DNA from: Sporomusaceae bacterium | GTDB taxonomy: Bacteria > Bacillota_C > Negativicutes > Sporomusales_B > UBA7701 | Assembly (NCBI GenBank): GCA_022839045.1 | Contig: JALHDI010000061.1 | Location: 1 to 16,837, forward strand | DNA length: 16,837 bases | Direction of reading: 5' to 3' | In this document: positions 1 to 11,528 of the stretch, piece after piece | How positions within the stretch are numbered: the stretch's first letter is position 1 | How the letters are laid out: each line of letters begins with the position of its first letter | Notes under the pieces: generated by a model | The model's database searches: none | Seen by the model: the letters and a program-made list of their open reading frames with translations, nothing else | What the model was told of the DNA's origin: nothing | Position numbers and translations under genes: made by a program

Positions 1-558
1 GATCTTGTCGATCTCGTCGATATAGACGATCCCCTTCTCCGCCTTCTCCACATCGTAATCGGCGGCCTGGATGAGCTTGAGGAGGATATTCTCCACATCC
101 TCGCCCACATAACCCGCCTCGGTCAGCGAAGTGGCGTCGGCGATCGCGAACGGCACATTCAGAATCTTGGCCAGCGTCTGGGCCAACAGCGTCTTGCCGC
201 TGCCCGTCGGGCCGAGCATAACGATATTCGACTTCTGCAGCTCGACATCTTCCAGCTTCGTGCCGAGATTGATCCGCTTGTAGTGGTTGTAAACAGCCAC
301 CGCCAGCGTCTTCTTGGCTTCGTCCTGGCCGATGACGTACTGGTCGAGAATATCCTTGATATCCTTCGGCTTGGGGATATCGCGAAGCTCAAGTTCGACG
401 TCCTCGCTCAGTTCTTCCTCTATGATCTCGTTGCACAGCTCGATACACTCGTCGCAGATATATACCCCGGGGCCGGCGACGAGTTTCTTGACCTGTTCCT
501 GCAGCTTGCCGCAGAACGAGCACTTTAACTGTCCCCTGTCATCTCCAAACTTAAGCAT
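1..558 (-). CDS. clpX: ClpX, ATPase subunit of the ClpXP protease (N-terminal 186 residues)
   Basis: AAA+ unfoldase that recognises tagged or misfolded proteins and feeds them to ClpP in the cytoplasm. The start is the ATG at 558, with GAGGTG just upstream on the minus strand. Residues 13-38 carry the zinc-binding C-x2-C...C-x2-C of the N-terminal domain (C13, C16, C35, C38). Residues 116-123 are a Walker A motif (GPTGSGKT). A Walker B motif with the sequence VYIDEID ends at the window edge. The gene continues past position 1, so the sensor and C-terminal parts are not visible. It starts 12 bp after the clpP stop and is almost certainly co-transcribed with it. Identity is very secure because the zinc-finger and AAA+ combination is specific to ClpX. 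Confidence 0.97.
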
Positions 559-570
559 CTTTTCACCTCA

Positions 571-1170
571 TTACTTGGGAATTTCCTTGCGGCGCTGGAT
601 CATGACGGCGTCGATGATACCGTACTCCTTGGCCTCCTCGCTCGACATGAAGAAATCCCGTTCCATATCGCGCTGGATCTTCTCCAGCGGCTGCCCGGTA
701 TGGCGCACGAGGATCTCGTTGCCGATCTCCCTCATCCGCAGAATCTCCCGGGCGTGAATCTCGATATCGGTAGCCTGGCCCTGAGCGCCGCCATGAGGCT
801 GGTGGATCATGATGCGCGAGAACGGCAGCGCGAAACGCTTGCCCTTCGCCCCAGCCGCCAGCAGCAGCGAACCCATGCTGGCCGCCTGGCCGATGCAGAT
901 CGTCGACACATCGGGCTTGACATGCTGCATCGTGTCGTAGATCGCCAGGCCGGCGGTGACAACGCCGCCGGGACTGTTGATATAAAGGTGGATGTCCTTG
1001 TCCGGGTCCTCGGATTCCAGGAAAAGCAGCTGAGCGATAATCACGTTGGCCACCGCATCGTCGATGGGGCCGCCGATAAAAACGATCCTGTCCTTGAGCA
1101 GACGGGAGTAGATATCGTAAGCTCGCTCGCCGCGGTTGGACTGCTCGACTACTATGGGAACGAAGTTCAT
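571..1170 (-). CDS. clpP: ClpP, ATP-dependent Clp protease proteolytic subunit
   Basis: Serine peptidase that forms the double-ring barrel which degrades proteins delivered by ClpX or other Clp ATPases. The protein is 199 residues, the usual length. The catalytic triad falls at the standard positions: Ser98 in GQAASMGS, His123 in MIHQPHGG, and Asp172 in MERDFF. The ATG at 1170 is preceded by GAGGTG at a suitable distance. It lies between tig (95 bp upstream) and clpX (12 bp downstream), the order common in Firmicutes. The 95-bp tig-clpP gap is A/T rich and may hold a clpP promoter, but I see no convincing -35/-10 pair, and no terminator follows tig. Confidence 0.98.
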
Positions 1171-1265
1171 TAATTATACACCTCGATACCGGTATTTTTC
1201 AACCTACAATATTTATCTTCAATACATTCAATATCTATAATATTATCCCGTCGGACCGTTTGCTA

Positions 1266-2555
1266 TTATTCCGCCGCCACGCTGTCGATAACCACCTGGG
1301 CCGCCTTCTTGCGGACCACCGAACGGGCCAGGGCCTCCAGGCGGCCCTCGGAAAGAATAATCTTGCGCACTTCCTCCACCGGAGCCCGGTAGCCGGCCGC
1401 CATCGCGGCCACCTCCTGGTCCAGGTCCTCGGGCGTGGCCTCGATCTCTTCCGCCTTGGCGATCGCCTCCAGCATCAGATCGGTCTTCACGCTCTCCACC
1501 GCCGCCTCGCGGTAATTGGCGCGCAGCGCGGCGATATCGGTCTTGGTCGCCTCGAGATACTTCGCCAGGCTCATGCCGCGATTCTGCAAGTTGATATCCA
1601 TCTCCCGCAGCATATTGTCGATCTCGCTCTCGATCATCACCGCGGGGATATCGACCGTACAGTTGTCCACCGCCGCCTTGATGGCGTTGGTGCGGAATTC
1701 GCGGTCCGCCTTATCGGCGGCGCCTTGTTTTAACTTATTCTCTATATCGGCCTTTAATTCCTCTACGGTATCAAAGTCGCTGACCTCCTTGACGAACTCG
1801 GCGTCAATGGCGGGCAGTTCCTTGCGCTTGACATCGTTGACCTTAACCTTGAACTCGGCCGTCTTGCCGGCAAGCTCGGACGCGAAATAATCGGCCGGAA
1901 ACTCCACCTTCACCTCGCGCTCCTCGCCGGCCTTGGCGCCCATGAGCTGATCCTCGAACCCGGGGATGAAGCTGCCGGAACCGATCTCCAGCGGGTAGCC
2001 CTTGCCTTCGCCGCCCTTGAACGGCGCCCCGTCGATGAAGCCCTCGAAATCGATGATCGCGAAATCGCCCTTCGCCAGGGCGGCATCCTCGATCACCACC
2101 ATCTTCGCGTGGCGGTTGCGGAGGTTCTCGAGCTGCTTGCTTACGTCCTCCTCGCTCACCGTCACCGCCGGCTTAGCGACCTTGAGTCCCTTATATTCGC
2201 CGAGCTCGATCTCCGGCTTGGCGATAACCGTCGCCTTGAACACCAACGGCTTATCTTCCTCGAACGTGACCACCTCGATCTCCGGGCGGGCCACCGGCTC
2301 GATCTTCTGCTCATCCAGAGCCTTGATGTAAGCGGGCGTCGCCAGCATCTCGAACGCCTCGTCCATGAGCGCCGCCTTGCCCAGGCGCATCTCCAGAATC
2401 TTACGGGGCACCTTGCCCTTGCGGAAACCGGGGATATTCACCTTAGCGGCCAATTTATGGTAAGCCTTATCAACCGCCTTCGCCACCTCGGGCTGCGGTA
2501 CCTCTAGCTCCAGGACCGTTTTATGGGCGTCGATCTTTTCTGCCGAAACTTTCAT
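1266..2555 (-). CDS. tig: Trigger factor, ribosome-associated chaperone and peptidyl-prolyl isomerase
   Basis: Binds the ribosomal exit tunnel and shields nascent chains; it also has prolyl isomerase activity. At 429 residues it has the usual full length. The ribosome-docking signature GFRKGKVP is at residues 43-50. The FKBP-type isomerase domain spans roughly 160-248 (GDFAIIDFEG ... GFEDQLMG). The rest is the helical chaperone domain, ending in a hydrophobic and charged helix. The ATG at 2555 has a strong AAGGAGG site on the minus strand. Tig heads the tig-clpP-clpX group, linking folding and degradation of cytoplasmic proteins. An A/T-rich promoter candidate lies about 85 bp upstream. No anomalies seen. 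Confidence 0.98.
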   Translation of the reverse strand: MKVSAEKIDAHKTVLELEVPQPEVAKAVDKAYHKLAAKVNIPGFRKGKVPRKILEMRLGKAALMDEAFEMLATPAYIKALDEQKIEPVARPEIEVVTFEEDKPLVFKATVIAKPEIELGEYKGLKVAKPAVTVSEEDVSKQLENLRNRHAKMVVIEDAALAKGDFAIIDFEGFIDGAPFKGGEGKGYPLEIGSGSFIPGFEDQLMGAKAGEEREVKVEFPADYFASELAGKTAEFKVKVNDVKRKELPAIDAEFVKEVSDFDTVEELKADIENKLKQGAADKADREFRTNAIKAAVDNCTVDIPAVMIESEIDNMLREMDINLQNRGMSLAKYLEATKTDIAALRANYREAAVESVKTDLMLEAIAKAEEIEATPEDLDQEVAAMAAGYRAPVEEVRKIILSEGRLEALARSVVRKKAAQVVIDSVAAE

Positions 2556-2935: not shown

Positions 2936-3070
2936 CATAACCGCCGCGAGAAAATTCTCCCTTAAGTGGTAACTACCAAGGTCGGCGAGAAAGCCCCCTC
3001 CCTTCCCCCGATGCACACAGAGAAAACCGGTAGCATATTATGTACCAAACGCGCAAAAGGGGGAATTCTG

Positions 3071-4306
3071 TTGTATTACCGGCTACAGGAATACTGCCGG
3101 CTGGTCGCCGGCGCCCGCCGCGGCGCCGTCTACAACCTGCAAACAGGCAAAGTCCTGTCCATCAACCAGGGCGCCCTCCAACTCCTCCTCGCCTGCCAGC
3201 AAAGCCCCCTGGAGGACGTCCTGGACATACAAGCCCCCGAGGACAAAATCTTCATCGACTTCCTCCACCGCCTGGCCGAAATGGGCCTGGGCTCCTTCTA
3301 CCTCGACAAGCCTGCCGCTGTCAGAACCGAAACCCCGGCCGCGGAACCCTCCAAACTCAACTTCCTGTGGCTCGAGCTCACCTCCACCTGCAACAACCGA
3401 TGTCTCCACTGCTACGCCACCAGCGGACCCTGCGCCGACAGCGACGCCGTGCCCCACGAACGGTGGCTTTCCCTCATCGCCGAAGCCCGCGCCGCCGGCG
3501 CCACCGCCATCCAGTTCATCGGCGGCGAGCCCCTCCTCTACCCCCGTTGGCGGGAACTGGTCGAAAAAGCCCGCGCCGAAAACTTCGACTTCATCGAAAT
3601 CTTCACCAACGCCACCCTGATCGACGACGCCTGCGTCGCCTTCTGCAAACAGCACGGCGTCAACATCGCCACAACCATCTACGCCGACAACGCCGCCGTC
3701 CACGACCGCGTCACCTTGAACCCCGGCAGCTTCGCGAAAACCATGGCCGCCGTCGAAAAAATCCTCGCCGCCAAAATACCCCTGCGCATCGCCTCCATAA
3801 TCATGAAAGCCAACGAGAACGAAGCCCAGAAAATCATGGACCTGTGCGCCAGACTCGGCGTCGAGGTCACCCCTCCCGACGTCGTCCGCCCCACCGGCCG
3901 CGGCGACGACAAGGACCTCCTCCCGGCCGCCTACGCCAAACCGCCCATCCGGCCGCCCTTCTACACCGACCCCGACACCTTCGCCAAAGCGCAGCGCTGC
4001 CACACCTGCCTCGACGGAAAAATCGCCGTCACCGCCGGCGGCGACGTCATCCCCTGCATCTTCGCCCGCAGCGAGATATGCGGCAACATACTCTCCTCGT
4101 CCCTCGCCGACGTACTTAACGGGAGGCGCCTCCAACAGTGCTGGCATACCACCAAGGACCACGTCGACAAATGCAAAGACTGCGAATACCGCTACGCCTG
4201 CACCGACTGCCGGCCGCTCGCCCAGGGGGCGGACTCCGCCAAGCGCTGGCTTGCCTGCTCGGTGGACTGTCCGTATAATCCCTATACTGGAAAATGGGAG
4301 GAATGA
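3071..4306 (+). CDS. Radical SAM peptide-modifying enzyme with PqqD-like N-terminus and SPASM-type cysteine region
   Basis: Probably installs radical-based (for example thioether) modifications on the cysteine-rich peptide encoded next. I place the start at TTG 3071 because AAAAGGGGGA lies 7-16 bp before it and the folded domain begins there. An in-frame ATG at 2966 would only add 35 low-complexity residues. From the TTG the protein has 411 residues. Residues 1-80 resemble a PqqD-type peptide-recognition domain. The radical SAM cluster motif C-x3-C-x2-C is C107, C111, C114, followed by the SAM-binding GGEPLL segment. The C-terminal third has eleven cysteines (310, 313, 329, 337, 357, 368, 371, 377, 380, 396, 400), including C-x2-C-x5-C-x2-C, as in SPASM auxiliary-cluster domains. 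Only 6 bp separate it from the peptide gene. No exporter or peptidase is adjacent. The enzyme class is secure. The reaction and partner are inferred from context. Confidence 0.85.
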   Translation: MYYRLQEYCRLVAGARRGAVYNLQTGKVLSINQGALQLLLACQQSPLEDVLDIQAPEDKIFIDFLHRLAEMGLGSFYLDKPAAVRTETPAAEPSKLNFLWLELTSTCNNRCLHCYATSGPCADSDAVPHERWLSLIAEARAAGATAIQFIGGEPLLYPRWRELVEKARAENFDFIEIFTNATLIDDACVAFCKQHGVNIATTIYADNAAVHDRVTLNPGSFAKTMAAVEKILAAKIPLRIASIIMKANENEAQKIMDLCARLGVEVTPPDVVRPTGRGDDKDLLPAAYAKPPIRPPFYTDPDTFAKAQRCHTCLDGKIAVTAGGDVIPCIFARSEICGNILSSSLADVLNGRRLQQCWHTTKDHVDKCKDCEYRYACTDCRPLAQGADSAKRWLACSVDCPYNPYTGKWEE

Positions 4307-4312
4307 ACCTAC

Positions 4313-4720
4313 ATGTCCGACGAAAAGCTCAATCGTCCCAAATGGGAAAGCCCGGAGATGGCCGACTGGGATGACGACTGGAGCGATGACGACGACGACC
4401 GGCAGCAGCTCATCGGCTGCCCGCCCACCGGCACACCCTGCTTCCCCAACTGCCGGCCGCGCTGCAACCCCGTCTGCGCCCCGCCGGGCTGCAACCCCAA
4501 CTGTCGTCCCTTCTGCTTCCCCACCACCTGCTTCCCCGTCTGCCGGCCCCAGTCCTGCAACCCGCGCTTCTGCAACCCGCGTTTCTGCAACCCCCGCTGC
4601 AATCCCGGCTGCAATCCGCGCTTCTGCTTCCCCGTCACCGGCTGCAATCCTCGCTGCCGTCCGCGTTGCAACCCGATCTGTTCGCCCCCCTGCGGTCCCA
4701 TGTGCTTCCCCCCGGGGTAA
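4313..4720 (+). CDS. Cys-Pro repeat peptide, candidate substrate of the adjacent radical SAM enzyme
   Basis: A 135-residue protein in two sharply different parts. Residues 1-35 are acidic, with 13 Asp/Glu including a run of five Asp, and could act as a leader. Residues 36-135 contain 22 cysteines, 11 Arg and no Asp, Glu, Lys, Leu, Trp, Tyr or His. All 22 cysteines have Pro at +2 (C-x-P). Successive cysteines are almost always 4 or 5 residues apart (the exceptions are one 6 and one 7), with CNPR, CRPR, CNPRF and CFP units. No signal peptide or membrane segment is evident. Its ribosome-binding site (GGGAGG) lies inside the end of the radical SAM gene, so translation is probably coupled. I do not recognise a named family. 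It resembles in style the CXXX-repeat peptides paired with radical SAM maturases. Alternatives are a spore-coat or metal-binding structural protein that is crosslinked or modified. Confidence 0.75.
   Translation: MSDEKLNRPKWESPEMADWDDDWSDDDDDRQQLIGCPPTGTPCFPNCRPRCNPVCAPPGCNPNCRPFCFPTTCFPVCRPQSCNPRFCNPRFCNPRCNPGCNPRFCFPVTGCNPRCRPRCNPICSPPCGPMCFPPG
4556..4610 (+). repeat. 15-bp tandem repeats inside the Cys-Pro peptide gene
   Basis: The units beginning at 4556 and 4571 are 15-bp near-identical copies encoding CNPRF, differing only at a silent C/T. They are followed at 4586, 4598 and 4610 by shorter relatives (CNPR, CNPG, CNPRF). The repeats keep the reading frame, so gain or loss of units would only lengthen or shorten the cysteine-rich region. 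Confidence 0.8.
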
Positions 4721-4730
4721 CCTCAGCCAA

Positions 4731-4758
4731 GAGAGCCGCACCTGAGCGTGCGGCTCTC
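4731..4758 (+). terminator. Hairpin terminator after the Cys-Pro peptide gene
   Basis: Perfect 11-bp stem GAGAGCCGCAC (4731-4741) with its complement at 4748-4758 and a 6-base loop, 10 bp after the peptide stop codon. The following T-tract is broken (TCCATGTTTTCCC), so termination may be partial. It separates the peptide operon from the methyltransferase unit. Confidence 0.7.
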
Positions 4759-4771
4759 TCCATGTTTTCCC

Positions 4772-5062: not shown

Positions 5063-5923
5063 ATGAAAATTATCAGAAACAATAAACTTGACCTAAACGC
5101 ATTGGGAAAACTCATTGCCAGACCGGAAATCTTCGCCAAAGGCACCGCCAAATTCTGGGATGACGACCATATATCCGGGCAAATGCTCAAGCTCCACCTG
5201 AATACCACCGTCGAAGCCGCCAGCCGAACCAAAGAAACGATTACCGCCGAAGCGGCCTTTATCATCGAATCCACCGGCATGAGCGACGAAAAAACGGTCC
5301 TTGATCTTGGCTGCGGCCCTGGTCTTTATGCCGCGGAATTCGCAAAAACAGGGACCAAAGTCACGGGCATAGACCTCTCCGCCAGATCGGTCGGCTACGC
5401 TAACGAAAACGTCAGGCCGGTACATGCAAACACGGCCTTTCTGCAAATGAACTATCTGGACATGGCTTTCAAAGAAGAATTCGATATCGCAACCCTCATC
5501 TTTTACGACTTCGGCGCATTGAGCACCGACGAGCAGAATACGCTGCTCGCCAACATTCACCGGGCTCTCAAAGCTGACGGAGTTTTCGTCTTCGACGTTA
5601 TCGCCGCGAACTGGCAAAATCCCCTGTCGTCCGGTATCACGGTACTTGAAACTGGCGGCTTCTGGCGCCCCGGCCCGTATGTCGAAATCCTCACCGCCCA
5701 TTCGTACGAAAACCCGCGAACCGAAGGACGGCAATACGCGATTATCGACGAGGACGGAGAAGCCGAAGTCATCAGAATCTATATCCGGCTATTCGGCCTG
5801 GAGGAGATTACGAAACTGCTAAATAGGCACCGTTTTAAAGTCGAAAAAATTTATAAGAACCTTAAAGGCGACCTTCTCGGGGAAAACCCGGAAACATACG
5901 CAATTTTCGCCAGAAAAGCATAA
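5063..5923 (+). CDS. Class I SAM-dependent methyltransferase, substrate unknown
   Basis: A 286-residue cytoplasmic Rossmann-fold methyltransferase. Motif I, LDLGCGPG, is at residues 80-87, followed by the acidic residue D104 (GIDLS) that binds the SAM ribose. A motif-IV-like stretch LIFYDFGALS lies near 145-154. The N-terminus has the segment FWDDDHISGQMLK (31-43), seen in a group of Firmicute methyltransferases of unassigned function. The ATG at 5063 has AAAAGGAG 9 bp upstream. It stands alone between a structured attenuator-like leader and a strong terminator. Codon third positions are clearly more A/T rich than in neighbouring genes, suggesting transfer. Nothing in the sequence decides between small-molecule, RNA or protein substrates. 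The fold is secure. Confidence 0.85.
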   Translation: MKIIRNNKLDLNALGKLIARPEIFAKGTAKFWDDDHISGQMLKLHLNTTVEAASRTKETITAEAAFIIESTGMSDEKTVLDLGCGPGLYAAEFAKTGTKVTGIDLSARSVGYANENVRPVHANTAFLQMNYLDMAFKEEFDIATLIFYDFGALSTDEQNTLLANIHRALKADGVFVFDVIAANWQNPLSSGITVLETGGFWRPGPYVEILTAHSYENPRTEGRQYAIIDEDGEAEVIRIYIRLFGLEEITKLLNRHRFKVEKIYKNLKGDLLGENPETYAIFARKA

Positions 5924-5968: not shown

Positions 5969-6649
5969 TCATTTTATCCTTCGTATCGTCTGGGGCTTGC
6001 GCTTGGCGAACGCCAATATCCCCCCCAGCGCGATCGACAGGAACGCCGCCATCAGCACCCGGTACTCGGGCGGCAGCAGAAAGGTCGCGGTATGGGCCGG
6101 GATCCAGAACAGCGGCAAGGTTCTAAGCACCACAAAACTCACGAACCCGTGCCAGTCGATGCGGCTTATCACCATCTTGAGTTCTATCTGCCCCAGCCGT
6201 CCCAGTTTGCCGTCGGCCAGGTCGATGTACGTATCGGTGATGCGGTGCAGGCCCATGAAGGTCGGCGCGAAAGTCAGGTTCATCACCGCGCTGATCAGGA
6301 AGGCGGTCACGAAGGTCGCCGTCGCGCTGTAGCCGCCCGGCAGCATCCCCTTCGCGATCGCCGCCACAACCCCGGCGCTGAACACCTGGAACATCAGCGT
6401 GATGACCATCCCCAGCAGGCCCCACACCACCGCCCGGAGCGTTATGCCGACCGGCCGCCGCCACTGCCCGGCGGTTATCCTCTGCGCCAGCAGCTCGCCC
6501 ATCGTCGCCAGCACGGCGAACTTGGCGAACCCCATCACGTAAGGGTACGCGGTGCTCAGGGCGACGAACGACTGGCGGGTGTCGGGCAGCGCCAGCAGAA
6601 GAACGATGGCGCCCAGGCCCGCCAGCCACAGGAAATCCCCAAACCTCAT
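5969..6649 (-). CDS. Small integral membrane protein, possibly Mpv17/PMP22-like
   Basis: A 226-residue protein with about five or six hydrophobic segments (roughly 7-23, 36-58, 66-92, 108-126, 165-188, 197-216) and a basic C-terminal tail. I do not recognise it with certainty. Two stretches look like the eukaryotic Mpv17/PMP22 family: YPYVMGFAKFAVLATMGELLAQ near residue 36, recalling the family's YP...GDxxAQ, and a C-terminal PPEYRVL followed by a last membrane helix, recalling its PLQYRVL. That assignment is from memory and unverified. Its ATG at 6649 overlaps the vorC stop by 4 bp (ATGA), so it is translationally coupled to the oxidoreductase. A role in the membrane passage or handling of the operon's acids is conceivable but is only inference from position. 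Confidence 0.6.
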   Translation of the reverse strand: MRFGDFLWLAGLGAIVLLLALPDTRQSFVALSTAYPYVMGFAKFAVLATMGELLAQRITAGQWRRPVGITLRAVVWGLLGMVITLMFQVFSAGVVAAIAKGMLPGGYSATATFVTAFLISAVMNLTFAPTFMGLHRITDTYIDLADGKLGRLGQIELKMVISRIDWHGFVSFVVLRTLPLFWIPAHTATFLLPPEYRVLMAAFLSIALGGILAFAKRKPQTIRRIK

Positions 6650-7173
6650 TTACCGAGGCCCTTCCGCACCGCCGCCAGATTGAGGTCGTAAAGCTCGGGC
6701 TTCTTCTTGCCGACGACGGCGCCGACAGCCTTCTCGACGCCGGCCATGTCGACCATCGTCAGCTTCGGCAGCAGCGCTCCCAGGCAAACCATGTTGGCCA
6801 GGCTGACGTTGCCCAGCTCGTTGGCCATCTCCCCGGCCAGCACGGCGATAATCTCGATATCGTCCCGCTTCTCGGCCGCCGAAACGATCGAGCTGTTCGC
6901 CACCAGCACCCCGCCCGGCTTGACGCGCGGCAGGAACTTGTCGTACGACGGCTGGTTGAGGACGATGGCGAAATCGGCGTACTCGATAACCGGGGAATGG
7001 ATCTCCTCATCCGAGATAACCACCGAGCAGTTGGCCGTGCCGCCGCGCATCTCCGGGCCGTAGGAGGGGATCCAGCAGACCTCGCGCCCGTCCAGCATGC
7101 CGGCGTAGGTGAGGATTTTGCCGATGAACATTACGCCCTGGCCGCCGAAACCGGCCAGAAGAATCTTATCCAT
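6646..7173 (-). CDS. vorC: 2-oxoacid:ferredoxin oxidoreductase, gamma subunit
   Basis: The gamma chain of a thiamine-diphosphate 2-oxoacid:ferredoxin oxidoreductase, which helps bind coenzyme A and closes the complex. It has about 175 residues. The glycine-rich motif AGFGGQGV is at residues 7-14, and PSYGPEMRGG further on is typical of KorC/VorC gamma chains. The start is either ATG 7173 (sharing its A with the beta-subunit TGA) or GTG 7176. I prefer the ATG because family members begin M-x-K-I-L. It follows the beta gene with no gap. The symbol follows the VorB-type alpha chain and the ptb/buk context. A 2-oxoglutarate (Kor) enzyme is the main alternative. Confidence 0.88.
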   Translation of the reverse strand: MDKILLAGFGGQGVMFIGKILTYAGMLDGREVCWIPSYGPEMRGGTANCSVVISDEEIHSPVIEYADFAIVLNQPSYDKFLPRVKPGGVLVANSSIVSAAEKRDDIEIIAVLAGEMANELGNVSLANMVCLGALLPKLTMVDMAGVEKAVGAVVGKKKPELYDLNLAAVRKGLGK

Positions 7174-7925
7174 CACAGCGCCTTCACCTCCTCGGTCATC
7201 TTAAGCTCGCCCATCTCATAAACAGGCAGCATATTCTCCTGCAGCCACTTCAGACTGTCGGCCGGCGACAGGCCCCAGTTGGTCGGGCAGGTCGACAGGA
7301 TACTGACGAACGCGTACCCCAGCCCCGCCTGCTGCACCTGGAAAGCCTTCTTCAGGCACTTCTTGGCCTGCATGATATTCTTCGGCGTATCGACCGAGCA
7401 GGCGGCCACATACGCCGCGCCGCTTAAGGTCGCCACCGTCTTCGGCATGTCGATGGGCGCGCCCACCAGGGCGCAGTCGCGGCCGTACGGGCTGGTCGTC
7501 GTCACCTGGCCGCCGATCGTCGTCGGCGCCATCTGGCCGCCGGTCATGCCGAACACCGCGTTGTTGACCATGATCGAAGTAATCTTCTCGCCGCGGGCCA
7601 CCACGTGGATGGCGTGGGAAGTGCCGATCGCGGCGATGTCGCCGTCCCCCTGGTAAGTGAAGACGAGCTTGTCGGGCAGGGCCCGCTTGATGCCCGTAGC
7701 CACCGCCTGGGCGCGGCCGTGGGCGGCGCCCACGAAATCGCAGGCGAAGAAATCGAGGGAGAAACCGGCGCAGCCCACCGGCGCCACGCCGATGGTATCG
7801 CCGATGATGTCGAGCTCCTCCAGCACCTCGCCGATCAGACGGTGGATGACGCCGTGGGTACAGCCGGGGCAATAATGGAAAGGCAGCTCGGTAAGGCCCT
7901 TGGGTCGGCCGAATACTCTTTGCAC
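7173..7925 (-). CDS. vorA: 2-oxoacid:ferredoxin oxidoreductase, beta (thiamine-diphosphate) subunit
   Basis: Carries the catalytic cofactor. Residues 93-96 are GDGD and NN follows at 121-122, the GDG...NN thiamine-diphosphate and Mg2+ binding motif. The N-terminal CPGC (19-22) and later cysteines are typical of the beta chains that hold a 4Fe-4S cluster near the cofactor. At 250 residues it has a normal length. The start is GTG 7925 with GGAGGTG 8 bp upstream, 4 bp after the alpha stop. Together with alpha, gamma and the small ferredoxin it would oxidatively decarboxylate 2-oxoacids to acyl-CoA and reduce ferredoxin in the cytoplasm. Preference for branched-chain oxoacids is inferred from neighbours. 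Confidence 0.9.
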   Translation of the reverse strand: MQRVFGRPKGLTELPFHYCPGCTHGVIHRLIGEVLEELDIIGDTIGVAPVGCAGFSLDFFACDFVGAAHGRAQAVATGIKRALPDKLVFTYQGDGDIAAIGTSHAIHVVARGEKITSIMVNNAVFGMTGGQMAPTTIGGQVTTTSPYGRDCALVGAPIDMPKTVATLSGAAYVAACSVDTPKNIMQAKKCLKKAFQVQQAGLGYAFVSILSTCPTNWGLSPADSLKWLQENMLPVYEMGELKMTEEVKAL

Positions 7926-7929
7926 GCTG

Positions 7930-8991
7930 TTACACCTCCACCGCCAGGTCGAACACCTGGCCGAGCTTGCGCAGAATTTCGTTCTCGCTGGGCAGCATTC
8001 CGCCCAGACGGTTATGGAAATAGACCGGCGCGCGGCACTCCACCGCCAGCTTCACATCCTCCACCATCTGGCCGAAGTTCAGCTCGACGGTCAGGATGCC
8101 CTTCACGCCGTCCAGGTTGGCGAACGCCTCCTCCGGGAACGGCCAGAGGGTGATCGGGCGGATGAGCCCCACCTTGAGGCCCTGCTTGCGGGCCTTCAGC
8201 ACCGCGCTCTTGGCGATGCGGCCGCAGGTGCCGTAGCCGACGAGCAGATACTCCGCGTCCTCGGCGTGGAACGCCTCCCAGCGCTGCAAGTTATCCTTCA
8301 TCTCAGCGTACTTGGCCTCAAAATGGAGATTGTTGGTCTCGCCGATCTCGTTCGTGAGCGCATAATTGGCCACCTTGCGCTTGGCCCGGCCCTTGCAGCC
8401 GCCCACCGTCCAATCCTTGGCCGGCAGGTCGGCCTTGGGCCGTTTCTTGAGTTCCACCGGTTCCATCATCTGGCCGAGGAAACCGTCGGTCAGGATGACC
8501 ACCGGCGTCCGGTACTTATCGGCGAGATCGAAAGCCTCCATGGTGAAATCGTACAGCTCCTGGCCCTTCGACGGCGCCAGCACGACCTGGCGGTAGCCGC
8601 CGTGGCCGCCGCCCTTGGTGCACTGGAAATAATCCGCCTGGGACGGCCCCAGCCCGCCGAGGCCCGGGCCGGTGCGGTTGACGTTCACCACAACCACCGG
8701 CAGCTCGGCCGCCGCCAGGTATGACATCCCCTCCTGCTTGAGGCTGAACCCCGGGCTGGAGGAGGCCGTCATCACCCTCGCGCCGGTCGTCGCGGCGCCG
8801 TAACACATATTGATCGAAGCGATCTCATCCTCCCCCTGCAGGAGGGTACCGCCCGCCTTGGGAAGATGCTTCGACAGATATTCGACAATCTCGGTCGAAG
8901 GGGTTATCGGGTAGCCGAAAAACAGTTTGCAGCCGGCGCGGATAGCCGCTTCGCCGATGGCCTCGTTCCCCTTCATAAGCTCCTTGGACAC
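7930..8991 (-). CDS. vorB: 2-oxoacid:ferredoxin oxidoreductase, alpha subunit (VorB-type)
   Basis: Pyrimidine-binding half of the oxidoreductase. Diagnostic segments include GYPITPSTEIVE near the N-terminus, LQGEDEIASINM, TASSSPGFSLKQEG, and GPGLGGLGPSQADYFQ, the last typical of chains annotated as 3-methyl-2-oxobutanoate (VorB) subunits. The start deserves care. AAAGGAG touches an ATG at 9000 with no spacing, whereas GTG 8991, three codons in, lies 9 nt from it. I therefore choose the GTG, giving 353 residues. The gene lies 30 bp after the ferredoxin gene and 4 bp before vorA. Substrate preference cannot be read from sequence alone. Confidence 0.9.
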   Translation of the reverse strand: MSKELMKGNEAIGEAAIRAGCKLFFGYPITPSTEIVEYLSKHLPKAGGTLLQGEDEIASINMCYGAATTGARVMTASSSPGFSLKQEGMSYLAAAELPVVVVNVNRTGPGLGGLGPSQADYFQCTKGGGHGGYRQVVLAPSKGQELYDFTMEAFDLADKYRTPVVILTDGFLGQMMEPVELKKRPKADLPAKDWTVGGCKGRAKRKVANYALTNEIGETNNLHFEAKYAEMKDNLQRWEAFHAEDAEYLLVGYGTCGRIAKSAVLKARKQGLKVGLIRPITLWPFPEEAFANLDGVKGILTVELNFGQMVEDVKLAVECRAPVYFHNRLGGMLPSENEILRKLGQVFDLAVEV

Positions 8992-9021
8992 GCGCTTCAT
9001 CTCCTTTCCCGCTGCTTACTC

Positions 9022-9225
9022 CTACTTGTAGATCTCCAGGGCCAGATCGGGGCACACCGTGCCGCACAGCCCGCAGCCGATACACTTGTCGGGGTCGGCC
9101 GGCACCACCACGTAATAGCCCTTCGAATTGGGCTTGTCGCCGATGGCCAGCACCTTGCGCGGGCACACCCCGATGCACAGGCCGCAGCTCTTGCAGTACT
9201 CGCTCAACACAACGACTTTCGCCAT
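9022..9225 (-). CDS. vorD: 2x[4Fe-4S] ferredoxin subunit of the 2-oxoacid oxidoreductase (delta)
   Basis: A 67-residue ferredoxin-type protein with two complete C-x2-C-x2-C-x3-CP motifs (C11, C14, C17, C21 and C48, C51, C54, C58). It would pass electrons from the thiamine centre of VorA to free ferredoxin. Its position as the first gene of the oxidoreductase set, 4 bp after ptb, matches the delta subunits of Vor/Kor complexes. A ribosome-binding site GGTGAG lies before ATG 9225. Confidence 0.88.
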   Translation of the reverse strand: MAKVVVLSEYCKSCGLCIGVCPRKVLAIGDKPNSKGYYVVVPADPDKCIGCGLCGTVCPDLALEIYK

Positions 9226-9229
9226 ATGC

Positions 9230-10141
9230 TCACCGCCTTTCCGCCCCGCCCGCCGCCAGGCAGGCCAGAGCGATAGAATATAATTTCCCTTCCGGCGTTT
9301 CGGAACGGGAAGTCAGCACGACCGGGTTTCGGGCGCCGAGCACGATCCCGGCCATCTTGGCCTTGGCGTAATAGAGAAGCGACTTGCCCATCGCGTTCCC
9401 TGTCTCGATATTCGGCATCAGGAAAAGATCCACCTGCCCGGAAATCCGGCTGGTAAGCCCCTTATGCCTGGCCGCCTCCGGGCTGAGCGCCACATCCAGG
9501 GCGATCGGCCCCTCCACGATCCCCGGCGGCAGCTCGCCGGCGGCCGCCATATCGGCGAGCGCCTTGGCGTCCACCGTCGCCGGCATCTTCGGGTTGACCT
9601 GCTCGTTGGCCGTCAGCACCGCCACGTTCGGCCGCTCGATCCCCAAAGAGCGCAGCACCAGCATGGCATTTACCAGGATATCCTTCTTCTCCGCCAGGGT
9701 CGGGGCGATATTCATCCCCCCGTCGGTCTGGAAAACCAGCTTCGGCTCGCCCGGCACCTCGAACGCCGCCAGATGGCTAAGCAGCCTCCCGGTGCGCAGG
9801 CCCACCTCGGGGCTCAATACCGCCTTGAGGAAATCGCTGGTGTTTATCAGGCCCTTCATCACCACCTGGGCCTCCCCCTTGCTCACCAGCGACACCGCCG
9901 TCAGCGCCGCCGCGGTCATATCCTTCTCGTCCACCACCGGCGTATCGGCCGGCAGGCCGACCTCCGCCAGCAGCGGCCGGATGACCGTCGCGTCCCCCAC
10001 CAGCAGAGGGCTGGCCAGGCCGTTGTCCTGGGCCAGCTTGACGGCCTGCAGCACATCCTTGTCCTGCGCCGCGGCCACGCTGATCGTCATCTGCCCCGGG
10101 CGTTTGGCCCAGGCGAGGACCTCTTGAAAATTCCTAAGCAC
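9230..10141 (-). CDS. ptb: Phosphate butyryltransferase / branched-chain acyl transferase
   Basis: Converts acyl-CoA plus phosphate to acyl-phosphate and free CoA, the first half of ATP recovery. The 303-residue protein matches the phosphate acetyl/butyryltransferase family: KGLINTSDFLKAVL in the middle, FQTDGGMNIAPTL, and a C-terminal PNIETGNAMGKSLLYYA block. The start is GTG 10141 because GGGGAGG lies 7 bp upstream and the conserved protein begins there. The frame stays open through the upstream repeat element to 10327, but that part is not protein-like. With Vor upstream in metabolism, the likely substrates are isobutyryl-, isovaleryl- or 2-methylbutyryl-CoA as well as butyryl-CoA. Confidence 0.9.
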   Translation of the reverse strand: MLRNFQEVLAWAKRPGQMTISVAAAQDKDVLQAVKLAQDNGLASPLLVGDATVIRPLLAEVGLPADTPVVDEKDMTAAALTAVSLVSKGEAQVVMKGLINTSDFLKAVLSPEVGLRTGRLLSHLAAFEVPGEPKLVFQTDGGMNIAPTLAEKKDILVNAMLVLRSLGIERPNVAVLTANEQVNPKMPATVDAKALADMAAAGELPPGIVEGPIALDVALSPEAARHKGLTSRISGQVDLFLMPNIETGNAMGKSLLYYAKAKMAGIVLGARNPVVLTSRSETPEGKLYSIALACLAAGGAERR

Positions 10142-10160
10142 TAACTTACCTCCCCACTGG

Positions 10161-10397
10161 GTCGACTGTGTAAGAAATCCATCTACTGCGTACCCGCAAG
10201 GGGCAGGCCGTCGTTCTATGGTGCTAAAGCACCAAGAACTCCGCACTTGCTCCTCAGAGCGCTTGCTTGCGTACGTTCCGAGTACGCGGCGCGGCGCGCT
10301 CGCACCCTTTCGGGTATAAGCGATCACATCAACGCTAAAGCGCTGTGTGTCTGCTTATCCGGTGCGCCTTGTATCTGGAGCTTCTTACGCAGTCGAT
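10161..10397. repeat. Structured 237-bp non-coding element with terminal inverted repeats (MITE/REP-like)
   Basis: The ends are inverted copies: GTCGACTGTGTAAGAA (10161-10176) and TTCTTACGCAGTCGAT (10382-10397) match at 14 of 16 bases, with further weaker similarity inward (TCCATCTAC versus TCCAGATAC). Inside are several short hairpins: CCC-GCAA-GGG (10193-10202), GGTGC-TAAA-GCACC (10220-10233), GCGTAC/GTACGC (10269-10274/10282-10287), ACCC-TTTC-GGGT (10304-10315) and ATAAGC/GCTTAT (10316-10321/10353-10358). It contains no credible gene or transposase and separates buk from ptb, which are otherwise in a tightly packed operon. No clear target-site duplication is visible. A non-autonomous mobile repeat is the best reading; a structured intercistronic RNA is the alternative. 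Confidence 0.65.
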
Positions 10398-10410
10398 CGC
10401 AGAGCGAATA

Positions 10411-11475
10411 TTACTTATAAATCTTAGCTTTTTCCTCGCCGCGTAAAACCCGCAGCGCCCCCAGCATCAGCGACTCCATCTCCTCCTCGCCGGGGGAGAC
10501 GACCACCGGGGCGATATGCCTGACGCGGGCGGCCACGTCGTCCGTGATCCGCCGCGAATGCGCAATGCCGCCGGTCAGGACGACATAGTCCACCTCGCCG
10601 GCCATCACCGTCGCCAGCGCGCCGATCTCCTTCGCCACCTGGTAAGCCATCGCGTCCAGCACCAGGTCGGCCTGAGCGTTGCCCTCGGCCGCCATCCTCT
10701 CCGCCTCGCGGACATCCCGCGTGCCGAGGTAGGCGTACATGCCGCCCGCACCCATCATCCTCGTCGCCAGCTCCTTGGCGGCAACCTTGCCTGAAAAGCA
10801 CAGCTTCATCAGCAGCGACGCCGGCAGCCCTCCGCTGCGGTCGGGGGAGAACGCCCCCTCGTCCTTGCCGTTGCTCACGTCGACCATCAGGCCCTTGCGA
10901 TGGGCGGCCACCGAAATCCCCGAACCGAGGTGGGCCACCACCATGTTCAGCTCCTCGTAGCGTCGGCCCTTCTCGGCGGCCACCTTGCGGGCCACCGCCT
11001 TATGGTTGAGCGCGTGGACGAGGCTTAGGCGCGGCAGCTCCGGCAGCCCGGAAACGCGGGCCACGTCCTCAAGTTCGTCAACCGACACCGGATCGACGAT
11101 AAACGCCGGAATGCCCAGCTTCTTCGCCAGGTCCAAAGCCAGCGCCGCGCCGAGGTTGGAGGCGTGCTCGCCGGCCGGCCGGTGCTCCAGATCGTCGACC
11201 ATCTGCGCGTTGACTTCGTATGTGCCGCTGGTCAGAGGCTTCATCAGGCCGCCACGGCCGACCACGGCATTCAGGCTCTCCAGCGCGATGCCCGCTTCCG
11301 CCAGCGTTTTCAGGATGAGGTCGAGACGGTACTTCTCCTGGTCGAACACGCGCGCGAACCCCTTCAATTCCTCGCCGTGATGCTCGACCGTCTTCTTGAA
11401 CAGCGGCGTTTCGCCGTCGAACACGGCCAGCTTCGTCGAAGTGTTCCCGGGGTTGATGGCAAGAATCCTTTCCAC
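10411..11475 (-). CDS. buk: Butyrate / branched-chain fatty acid kinase
   Basis: Transfers phosphate from acyl-phosphate to ADP, releasing the free acid and ATP. The 354-residue protein has the acetokinase-family motifs: ILAINPGNTSTKLAVFDG at the N-terminus, VVAHLGSGISVAAH and GAFSPDRSGGLP in the middle, and the adenosine-site VVLTGGIAHS near the C-terminus. It is shorter than acetate kinase and fits butyrate kinase. The start is GTG 11475 with GGGGAGG 6 bp upstream. The 15 extra in-frame codons up to 11520 overlap a palindrome and have no ribosome site. It is the first gene of the buk-ptb-vor unit, with a candidate promoter about 100 bp upstream. Confidence 0.92.
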   Translation of the reverse strand: MERILAINPGNTSTKLAVFDGETPLFKKTVEHHGEELKGFARVFDQEKYRLDLILKTLAEAGIALESLNAVVGRGGLMKPLTSGTYEVNAQMVDDLEHRPAGEHASNLGAALALDLAKKLGIPAFIVDPVSVDELEDVARVSGLPELPRLSLVHALNHKAVARKVAAEKGRRYEELNMVVAHLGSGISVAAHRKGLMVDVSNGKDEGAFSPDRSGGLPASLLMKLCFSGKVAAKELATRMMGAGGMYAYLGTRDVREAERMAAEGNAQADLVLDAMAYQVAKEIGALATVMAGEVDYVVLTGGIAHSRRITDDVAARVRHIAPVVVSPGEEEMESLMLGALRVLRGEEKAKIYK

Positions 11476-11505
11476 AGCAAACCTCCCCAATTCGTTCCGT
11501 CTATC

Positions 11506-11518
11506 GGAACAATGTTCC
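11506..11518. promoter_or_regulatory. Operator-like palindrome upstream of buk
   Basis: A perfect 6-1-6 inverted repeat GGAACAATGTTCC, 31 bp before the buk start. A third copy of the half-site (GTTCC, 11494-11498) lies 7 bp away and can form a hairpin GTTCCG/CGGAAC (11494-11499/11505-11510). The symmetry suggests a regulator-binding site within the leader. I cannot assign the protein. Confidence 0.4.
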
Positions 11519-11528
11519 ACAAATACGT

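Follow-up and report, generated by a model that had tools for sequence, protein, structure and literature searches.

A radical SAM/SPASM enzyme paired with C-x-P repeat proteins in Negativicutes, and its probable part in the spore coat

Introduction

What does a radical S-adenosylmethionine (SAM) enzyme make when it is encoded just ahead of a protein in which every cysteine is followed by proline at the second position? The question is raised by a 16,837-nucleotide stretch of a Sporomusaceae bacterium (positions 1 to 16,837 of contig JALHDI010000061.1, assembly GCA_022839045.1; hereafter the window), in which a gene for a radical SAM enzyme with a SPASM domain (3071..4306, plus strand; 411 residues from a TTG start) is followed 6 bp downstream by one for a 135-residue protein with 22 C-x-P motifs (4313..4720, plus strand). 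Peptide maturases of the radical SAM type are mostly known as makers of antibiotics, signals and cofactors, and a first-pass annotation of the window had taken the two genes for a candidate undescribed enzyme-substrate pair whose product, predicted to be heavily crosslinked, might be intracellular or associated with spores. Here we report that the two genes probably supply a component of the spore coat, because in Negativicutes the enzyme is nearly confined to genomes with SpoIVA and stands behind a sporulation-type promoter. The pair has held up and the spore association is well supported; what the annotation missed is the sigma-K-like promoter, the existence of further precursors unlinked to the enzyme, and a wider class of C-x-P systems in other phyla.

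An enzyme paired with C-x-P proteins

The smaller gene encodes an acidic front of 35 residues followed by a 100-residue cysteine region (the core, 4418..4717, plus strand), and 22 of 22 cysteines carry proline at +2, as had been read from the translation at the outset. This pattern exceeds chance: 20,000 shuffles of the core gave 5.9 C-x-P motifs on average and never more than 13, against the 22 observed. The other five reading frames hold a single C-x-P in one case and none in four, and the +2 prolines are encoded by CCC (14), CCG (7) and CCT (1). The C and P codons are under constraint while the number and order of the repeats change, with synonymous to non-synonymous differences at the aligned C and P codons of 10:1 for L101, the closest relative in this comparison, 17:2 for L005, 14:2 for L100 and 13:0 for L001, whose peptide has 26 cysteines. 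Within the acidic front lies WESPEMADW (4343..4369, plus strand), an instance of the conserved leader WExPE[IM]x[DE]W, and such a leader joined to varying repeats beside a maturase is the layout of a precursor of a ribosomally synthesized and post-translationally modified peptide (RiPP). The window protein gave 0 Pfam and 0 NCBIfam matches, and a phmmer homology search with it returned six candidates, all short of E 0.001.

A profile of 23 relatives of the enzyme was searched over genome contigs, and the best 80 of 102 confirmed matches define 79 loci in several phyla, at 27-91% identity. Thirty-one close loci (55-91%) are found in Sporomusa, Pelosinus, Lucifera, Anaerospora, Propionispora and other Negativicutes, in Bacillota metagenome-assembled genomes and in one Ruminiclostridium; the 48 distant loci (27-40%) include Clostridia, Deltaproteobacteria, Patescibacteria, Bacteroidetes, Synergistaceae, alphaproteobacteria and one Woesearchaeon. 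An open reading frame (ORF) was counted as C-x-P if it had at least four such motifs making up at least 60% of its cysteines, a criterion fixed after the close loci were inspected. One lies within 1.5 kb of the enzyme in 59 of the 79 loci (24 of 31 close, 35 of 48 distant), with none in the remaining 20. In all, 70 such ORFs were found in the 222 kb searched within 1.5 kb of the enzyme and 7 in the 567 kb elsewhere, all seven in L028, L042 and L054, which are loci with extra precursors; in L028 the precursors are more than 2 kb from the enzyme, and in L030 the repeat tract is partly masked. Since the homologues do adjoin C-x-P peptides, the genomes do not have the arrangement that would speak against the pair first proposed, namely homologues lying consistently beside unrelated genes.

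In 24 close peptides, taken from a screen for cysteine content that was blind to proline and with some starts moved, 313 of 319 cysteines are in C-x-P; the +1 residue is F, N, W, R, Y or another, and +3 is R in 145 of 318. Among 26 distant peptides the figure is 197 of 217, which is biased upward because these were picked by eye for their C-x-P content, and +3 is D in 51 of 216. On these counts only cysteine and proline are fixed, and the motif tracks the enzyme across clades. These observations bear on a simpler explanation, that the protein is an unmodified, cysteine-rich metal-binding or disulfide-linked coat protein and that the neighbouring enzyme serves something else. Disulfide-linked cysteine-rich coat proteins do exist in other spore-formers, according to the portions of PMC6101409 available to us, but the pairing within 1.5 kb extends down to 27% identity and the proline at +2 is retained in the clades examined, and we regard this explanation as very unlikely.

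A sporulation-type promoter and phyletic distribution

Upstream of the enzyme, mostly CAC, a spacer of about 16 bases and GCATATTATGTA are kept while the flanks diverge. In the window the -35 region is CACAC (3014-3018) and the -10 element GCATATTATG (3033-3042), together a putative mother-cell, sigma-K-like promoter (3014..3042, plus strand). The pattern AC-N15-18-CATANNNTR lies no more than 110 bp before the first gene in 26 of 30 operons, a count that omits L027 and L029 at contig edges. The operons without it at that distance are L013, L024, L030 and L031, the last with GCATATTATGTA farther upstream; in L009 and L025 the peptide gene is first and the motif precedes the peptide. The background rate is 0.18 per kb (136 matches in 750 kb, both strands, operon sites included). 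Ten of 11 loci collected later have the pattern within 110 bp, and the other, L115, has GCATATTATG farther upstream. Written as AC-N15-18-CATANNNT, the pattern marking the sigma-K regulon was found in 26 of 30 operons, 10 of 11 later loci and 16 of 21 unlinked precursors (described below), and no sigma-K-type motif was found within 250 bp in the 23 of 48 distant systems checked. By the consensus given in the accessible portion of PMC3789822, the promoter most likely matches sigma-K first.

For the distribution we drew 300 genomes from Negativicutes, their completeness unreported, and scored the enzyme at E <=1e-60 and SpoIVA (TIGR02836) at E <=1e-40. The enzyme is present in 50 genomes and SpoIVA in 52; 47 have both and 245 have neither. 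Three have the enzyme only (G044, G072 and G122) and five have SpoIVA only, of which G133 has a best enzyme match of 2.5e-58 (40% identity), G049 of 1.9e-17 and G077 of 4.6e-9, with none in G014 and G032. When ten genomes were searched for Spo0A (TIGR02875), it was present in G044, G133 and the enzyme-free G015, and was not found in G072, G122, G077, G011, G018, G040 or G042. Promoter and phyletic distribution together support well the early suggestion that the product is associated with spores.

Precursors away from the enzyme

The exact 12-mer GCATATTATGTA occurs at 3, 3 and 5 sites in three genomes (0, 1 and 0 for the reversed control). In G093 these are the operon, a second C-x-P gene (L130) and a ferritin-like gene (L127; PF00210), perhaps a member of the same late-sporulation regulon; in G001 they are the operon, a second C-x-P gene (L129) and a site without an ORF. 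The G002 sites comprise the operon, one without an ORF, one ahead of a 126-residue ORF, and two ahead of stretches of long ORFs that are nearly identical, these two probably by chance.

Written as a DNA pattern, the leader gave 81 matches in 36 of the 300 genomes (0 for the control), with at most five in a genome (G001, G051). The enzyme is present in 33 of these 36 (p 5.6e-28); the other three are G077 and G133, which have SpoIVA, and G192, in which the match lies inside a long unrelated protein. Thirty loci were fetched from the 81 matches, and 29 encode C-x-P proteins, L149 being the exception and L138 a frameshifted gene with three C-x-P. Twenty-one of the 29 are not adjacent to the enzyme, being placed on a different contig or separated from it by 190 kb or more, and one of these (L145, in G077) is in a genome with no enzyme match at threshold. 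The full promoter pattern is found within 200 bp of the leader tryptophan in 16 of the 21, against a background of 43 in 122 kb (both strands, precursor sites included); four others have the CATANNNT box, and L150 has neither. About a third of the 21 have a glycine-rich stretch such as GLGLGLGF ahead of the repeats. To judge from these sequences, the scattered, leader-bearing precursors look like a regulon served in trans by one maturase.

The same distribution is difficult to reconcile with a secreted antimicrobial or signalling peptide, such as a bacteriocin of the sactipeptide or ranthipeptide type. The enzyme superfamily is the same, and some distant relatives are accompanied by peptides with a Nif11-type leader (L051) or GG leaders (L055, by eye). 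In Negativicutes, however, the chromosomal place of the operon is conserved among close loci, the promoter is of a mother-cell type, the precursors are spread over the genome, and the enzyme is found in only 3 of the 248 genomes without SpoIVA; no exporter was seen beside the operon among the window ORFs, which were judged by eye, with no systematic search at the other loci. Promoter, synteny and scattered precursors led us to set the bacteriocin aside as highly unlikely. A small excised peptide is likewise unlikely in Negativicutes, and structural proteins would fit better.

The maturase and its predicted chemistry

The description of the enzyme as a radical SAM protein with SPASM-type cysteines is borne out by Pfam matches to Radical_SAM (8.8e-18) and SPASM (1.1e-7), both above cut-offs. 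Its open frame reaches upstream to a GTG at 2966 (a 446-residue frame), and relatives begin at the residue equivalent to the TTG at 3071 (MYYRL.. or LYYRL..). In an alignment of 96 family sequences, the first cysteine of the CxxxCxxC cluster motif (C107, C111, C114; 3389..3412, plus strand) is kept in 95 and the other two in all 96. The SPASM domain (4007..4270, plus strand) has seven conserved cysteines (313, 329, 368, 371, 377, 380, 400), six of them present in 96 of 96 sequences and C400 in 95, and 67 of the 96 have no cysteine in the linker at 280-312. The spacing in this family is C-x2-C-x5-C-x2-C, and that given by PMC6231123 is C-x2-C-x5-C-x3-C.

The N-terminal part, residues 1 to about 80 (3071..3310, plus strand), is a candidate RiPP recognition element (RRE) of the PqqD-like kind. 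The PqqD-like front of the first-pass annotation agrees with the predicted secondary structure (four strands, then helices) and less well with the sequence, as the window N-terminus matches no Pfam family; PqqD was matched by 5 of 23 family N-termini, the window's own not among them (best E 0.0041), and a profile search of the PDB with this region found nothing convincing. A structure model of the maturase was built with the 96 sequences (predicted local distance difference test, pLDDT, 95.3), and a search with it placed SkfB and CteB among the best folds, most rows spanning residues 91-402. Because chains of the anaerobic sulfatase-maturating enzyme (anSME), SuiB, ChlB, PqqE and viperin-like proteins lie within a few Z units of SkfB, the fold alone chooses no chemistry.

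In one candidate chemistry the enzyme would be a formylglycine maker: the C-x-P cysteines would become aldehydes by the oxidation that anaerobic sulfatase maturases carry out at (C/S)-x-P-x-R, and the resulting poly-aldehyde protein would cross-link the coat by reaction with amines. The shared C-x-P invites this comparison, but arginine at +4 is rare (14 of 310 cysteines in the close set), seven SPASM cysteines are conserved where anSME has eight, and Ile or Val follows Cys329 in 95 of 96 sequences, at the position where anSME carries its catalytic Asp277. We consider a formylglycine maker quite unlikely. Some other radical chemistry at C-x-P, such as epimerisation, a bond to the proline itself or another bond, would still leave a spore structural protein, and we rate it as unlikely: epimerisation alone needs no cysteine, yet every motif keeps one, and a thioether between Cys and Pro would fall within the thioether chemistry that we favour.

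A proposed role in the spore coat

The reading to which we give somewhat better than an even chance is that a single maturase serves, in trans, a family of structural proteins of late sporulation, probably placing thioethers at their C-x-P sites, and that these proteins are destined for the spore coat. Under a mother-cell sigma factor (sigma-K most likely), RNA polymerase would transcribe the maturase together with the adjacent precursor, and also the unlinked precursors. The RRE-like N-terminal domain of the maturase would then bind the shared leader in trans, and the radical SAM/SPASM part would move along the C-x-P repeats, most likely linking each cysteine sulfur to a nearby carbon, with the substrate cysteine held at an open Aux I site predicted from the seven conserved SPASM cysteines. 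The modified proteins may enter the spore coat or an outer layer and there play the part that disulfide-linked cysteine-rich coat proteins play in other spore-formers, in a form that is covalently stiffened and redox-stable.

Several observations weigh against this proposal. No intact C-x-P ORF was found near the enzyme in L006, L024, L027 and L029 (L027 and L029 being cut by contig ends), nor within 1.5 kb in L106 and L111 among the 11 later loci, of which nine have one; L013 has three C-x-P left in an ORF that is otherwise different, L015 (Sporomusa silvacetica) retains the leader and has lost the rest of the gene, and L018 (Pelosinus fermentans JBW45) has a frameshifted repeat tract. The copy next to the enzyme is therefore dispensable, being absent, degenerate or broken at several loci, and its decay makes sense if other precursors exist; 17 of the 50 enzyme-positive genomes have no exact leader match. 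The enzyme and SpoIVA part company in the three genomes one way and five the other noted above, and their association (Fisher p 2e-45) ignores phylogeny. The -10 element of sigma-E resembles that of sigma-K, according to the portion of PMC3789822 available. The promoter motif was derived from the discovery set and the later loci come from related organisms, so these tests are not independent of descent. As to chemistry, fold scores for SkfB, CteB, SuiB and anSME are too similar to settle it, and a linker cysteine is present in 29 of 96 sequences, including the window enzyme (Cys310, common to 12 of 96), although an eighth cluster cysteine is not conserved. Finally, distant C-x-P systems also occur in phyla that to our knowledge are not known for spores, so the function of the C-x-P class as a whole is not sporulation.

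We note that the gene decay in L018 and L015 is also a sign of fast repeat turnover.

Known systems and the wider C-x-P class

Among the 25 NCBIfam families listed, none was reached at its cut-off by the window enzyme, and the pair continues to look undescribed; the same holds for nine distant enzymes among the families listed. Sactipeptide and ranthipeptide maturases (SkfB, CteB, PapB, AlbA) resemble it in having radical SAM and SPASM or Twitch domains, an RRE-type front (a candidate one in the window enzyme) and a cysteine-rich precursor, whereas the window system has C-x-P repeats, a long acidic leader, unlinked precursors and a sporulation-type promoter, and its enzyme scores well below the models StsB (78.5 bits, cut-off 625), SkfB (69.1, cut-off 300) and AlbA (54.2, cut-off 850). 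The highest C-terminal SPASM similarity is to the grasp-with-spasm maturase TIGR04193 (99.5 bits, cut-off 175; residues 337-446 of the 446-residue frame), but unlike those systems the window has no ATP-grasp ligase among its ORFs, as judged by eye. The six-cysteine SCIFF peptide is likewise a small cysteine-rich precursor beside a radical SAM/SPASM enzyme, from which the window peptide differs in length, cysteine number and obligatory proline, as first stated, and in having no NCBIfam match. The CXXX-repeat radical SAM target TIGR04117 shares a repeated cysteine motif, with weak matches only (L050, E 0.07; L032, E 0.09), and nothing above its cut-off in the tested peptides, in 3 genomes or in 297 genomes, though in one of these scans the controls were silent too. 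We know of no dedicated maturase and no C-x-P rule for CdeC, CdeM, CotY or ExsY. These resemble the precursor as cysteine-rich structural proteins of the spore surface (PMC6101409, PMC8546674), and the accessible portions of PMC6101409 present members such as CdeC and CotY as liable to disulfide cross-linking. Among the titles and abstract openings listed from the open literature (at most 15 for any one search), which leaves most subscription journals outside, we found neither a radical SAM system with C-x-P substrates nor a coat protein modified by a radical SAM enzyme; the new radical SAM pathways in the portion of PMC9062424 available include one whose peptide has Asp-Cys repeats and which may overlap the distant C-x-P(D) clade.

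Across the wider C-x-P class the chemistry seems common and its use different. Deltaproteobacterial C-x-P proteins (L032:7275-7799, L069:816-1388) have a twin-arginine-type signal (by eye) and a peptidoglycan-binding domain (PF01471; 1e-13 and 8.3e-17), an architecture like that of HxsA, the repeat protein of the His-Xaa-Ser radical SAM system; the L032 protein matches HxsA through this C-terminal domain (37.6 bits, TIGR03979 cut-off 121.65), but the HxsA repeats are HxS, and the window protein has no peptidoglycan-binding domain. On a Woesearchaeota contig (L042:3525-5951) several C-x-P proteins stand in a row ahead of the enzyme gene, some with twin-arginine translocation (Tat)-type signals, one reaching 18.9 bits against TIGR01409 (cut-off 16.7). 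The L051 protein has a Nif11 leader (43.2 bits, cut-off 32.3), the peptides of L054 and L055 have GG-type leaders (by eye), and those of Clostridia have short ELLT or ECLT leaders (by eye). The GG-leader peptides accompany a second maturase, 34-35% identical (L055:5303-7128, L054:3330-7128), which in L055 is separated from the main operon by about 23 kb of one contig (L005/L055), that of a bacterium closely related to the window's organism.

A fuller proposal, which we hold tentatively and at somewhat less than even confidence, is that spore-forming Negativicutes armour their spores by means of a regulon of radical-SAM-modified proteins, a single maturase being drawn from a phylum-crossing class of RiPP enzymes that act on the C-x-P motifs of long repeat proteins, and working in trans in the mother cell on several unlinked coat proteins, with Tat-exported, peptidoglycan-binding or GG-leader products in other phyla. 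If true, it would add to ribosomal modification a new class that serves building material, not weapons or signals, and if confirmed we know of no precedent for such a use of radical SAM RiPP chemistry. A maturase that builds a spore layer from scattered precursors with a shared leader would tie RiPP chemistry to development and would offer a testable explanation of spore toughening in these organisms, while the three-residue C-x-P rule, retained across phyla, would be a simple handle for discovering this chemistry and, in enzyme engineering, for multi-site cross-links.

Surroundings of the operon

The two-gene operon seems to be closed by a probable intrinsic terminator (4730..4769, plus strand; by eye), with 12-bp hairpin arms at 4730-4741 and 4748-4759 and then a short T-rich stretch. 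Upstream are clpX, clpP and tig (1-2555, minus strand; names by eye from the sequences) and a tRNA-Gly gene (2812-2886). A SAM-dependent methyltransferase gene downstream (5063-5923) was considered as a component and left out of the system, because it has a counterpart in only 1 of the 31 close loci (L005). Farther along, at 6646-11520, are an apparent 2-oxoacid:ferredoxin oxidoreductase and then phosphate butyryltransferase- and butyrate kinase-like genes (names by eye), a gene order also seen in L001 and L002 and partly in L005.
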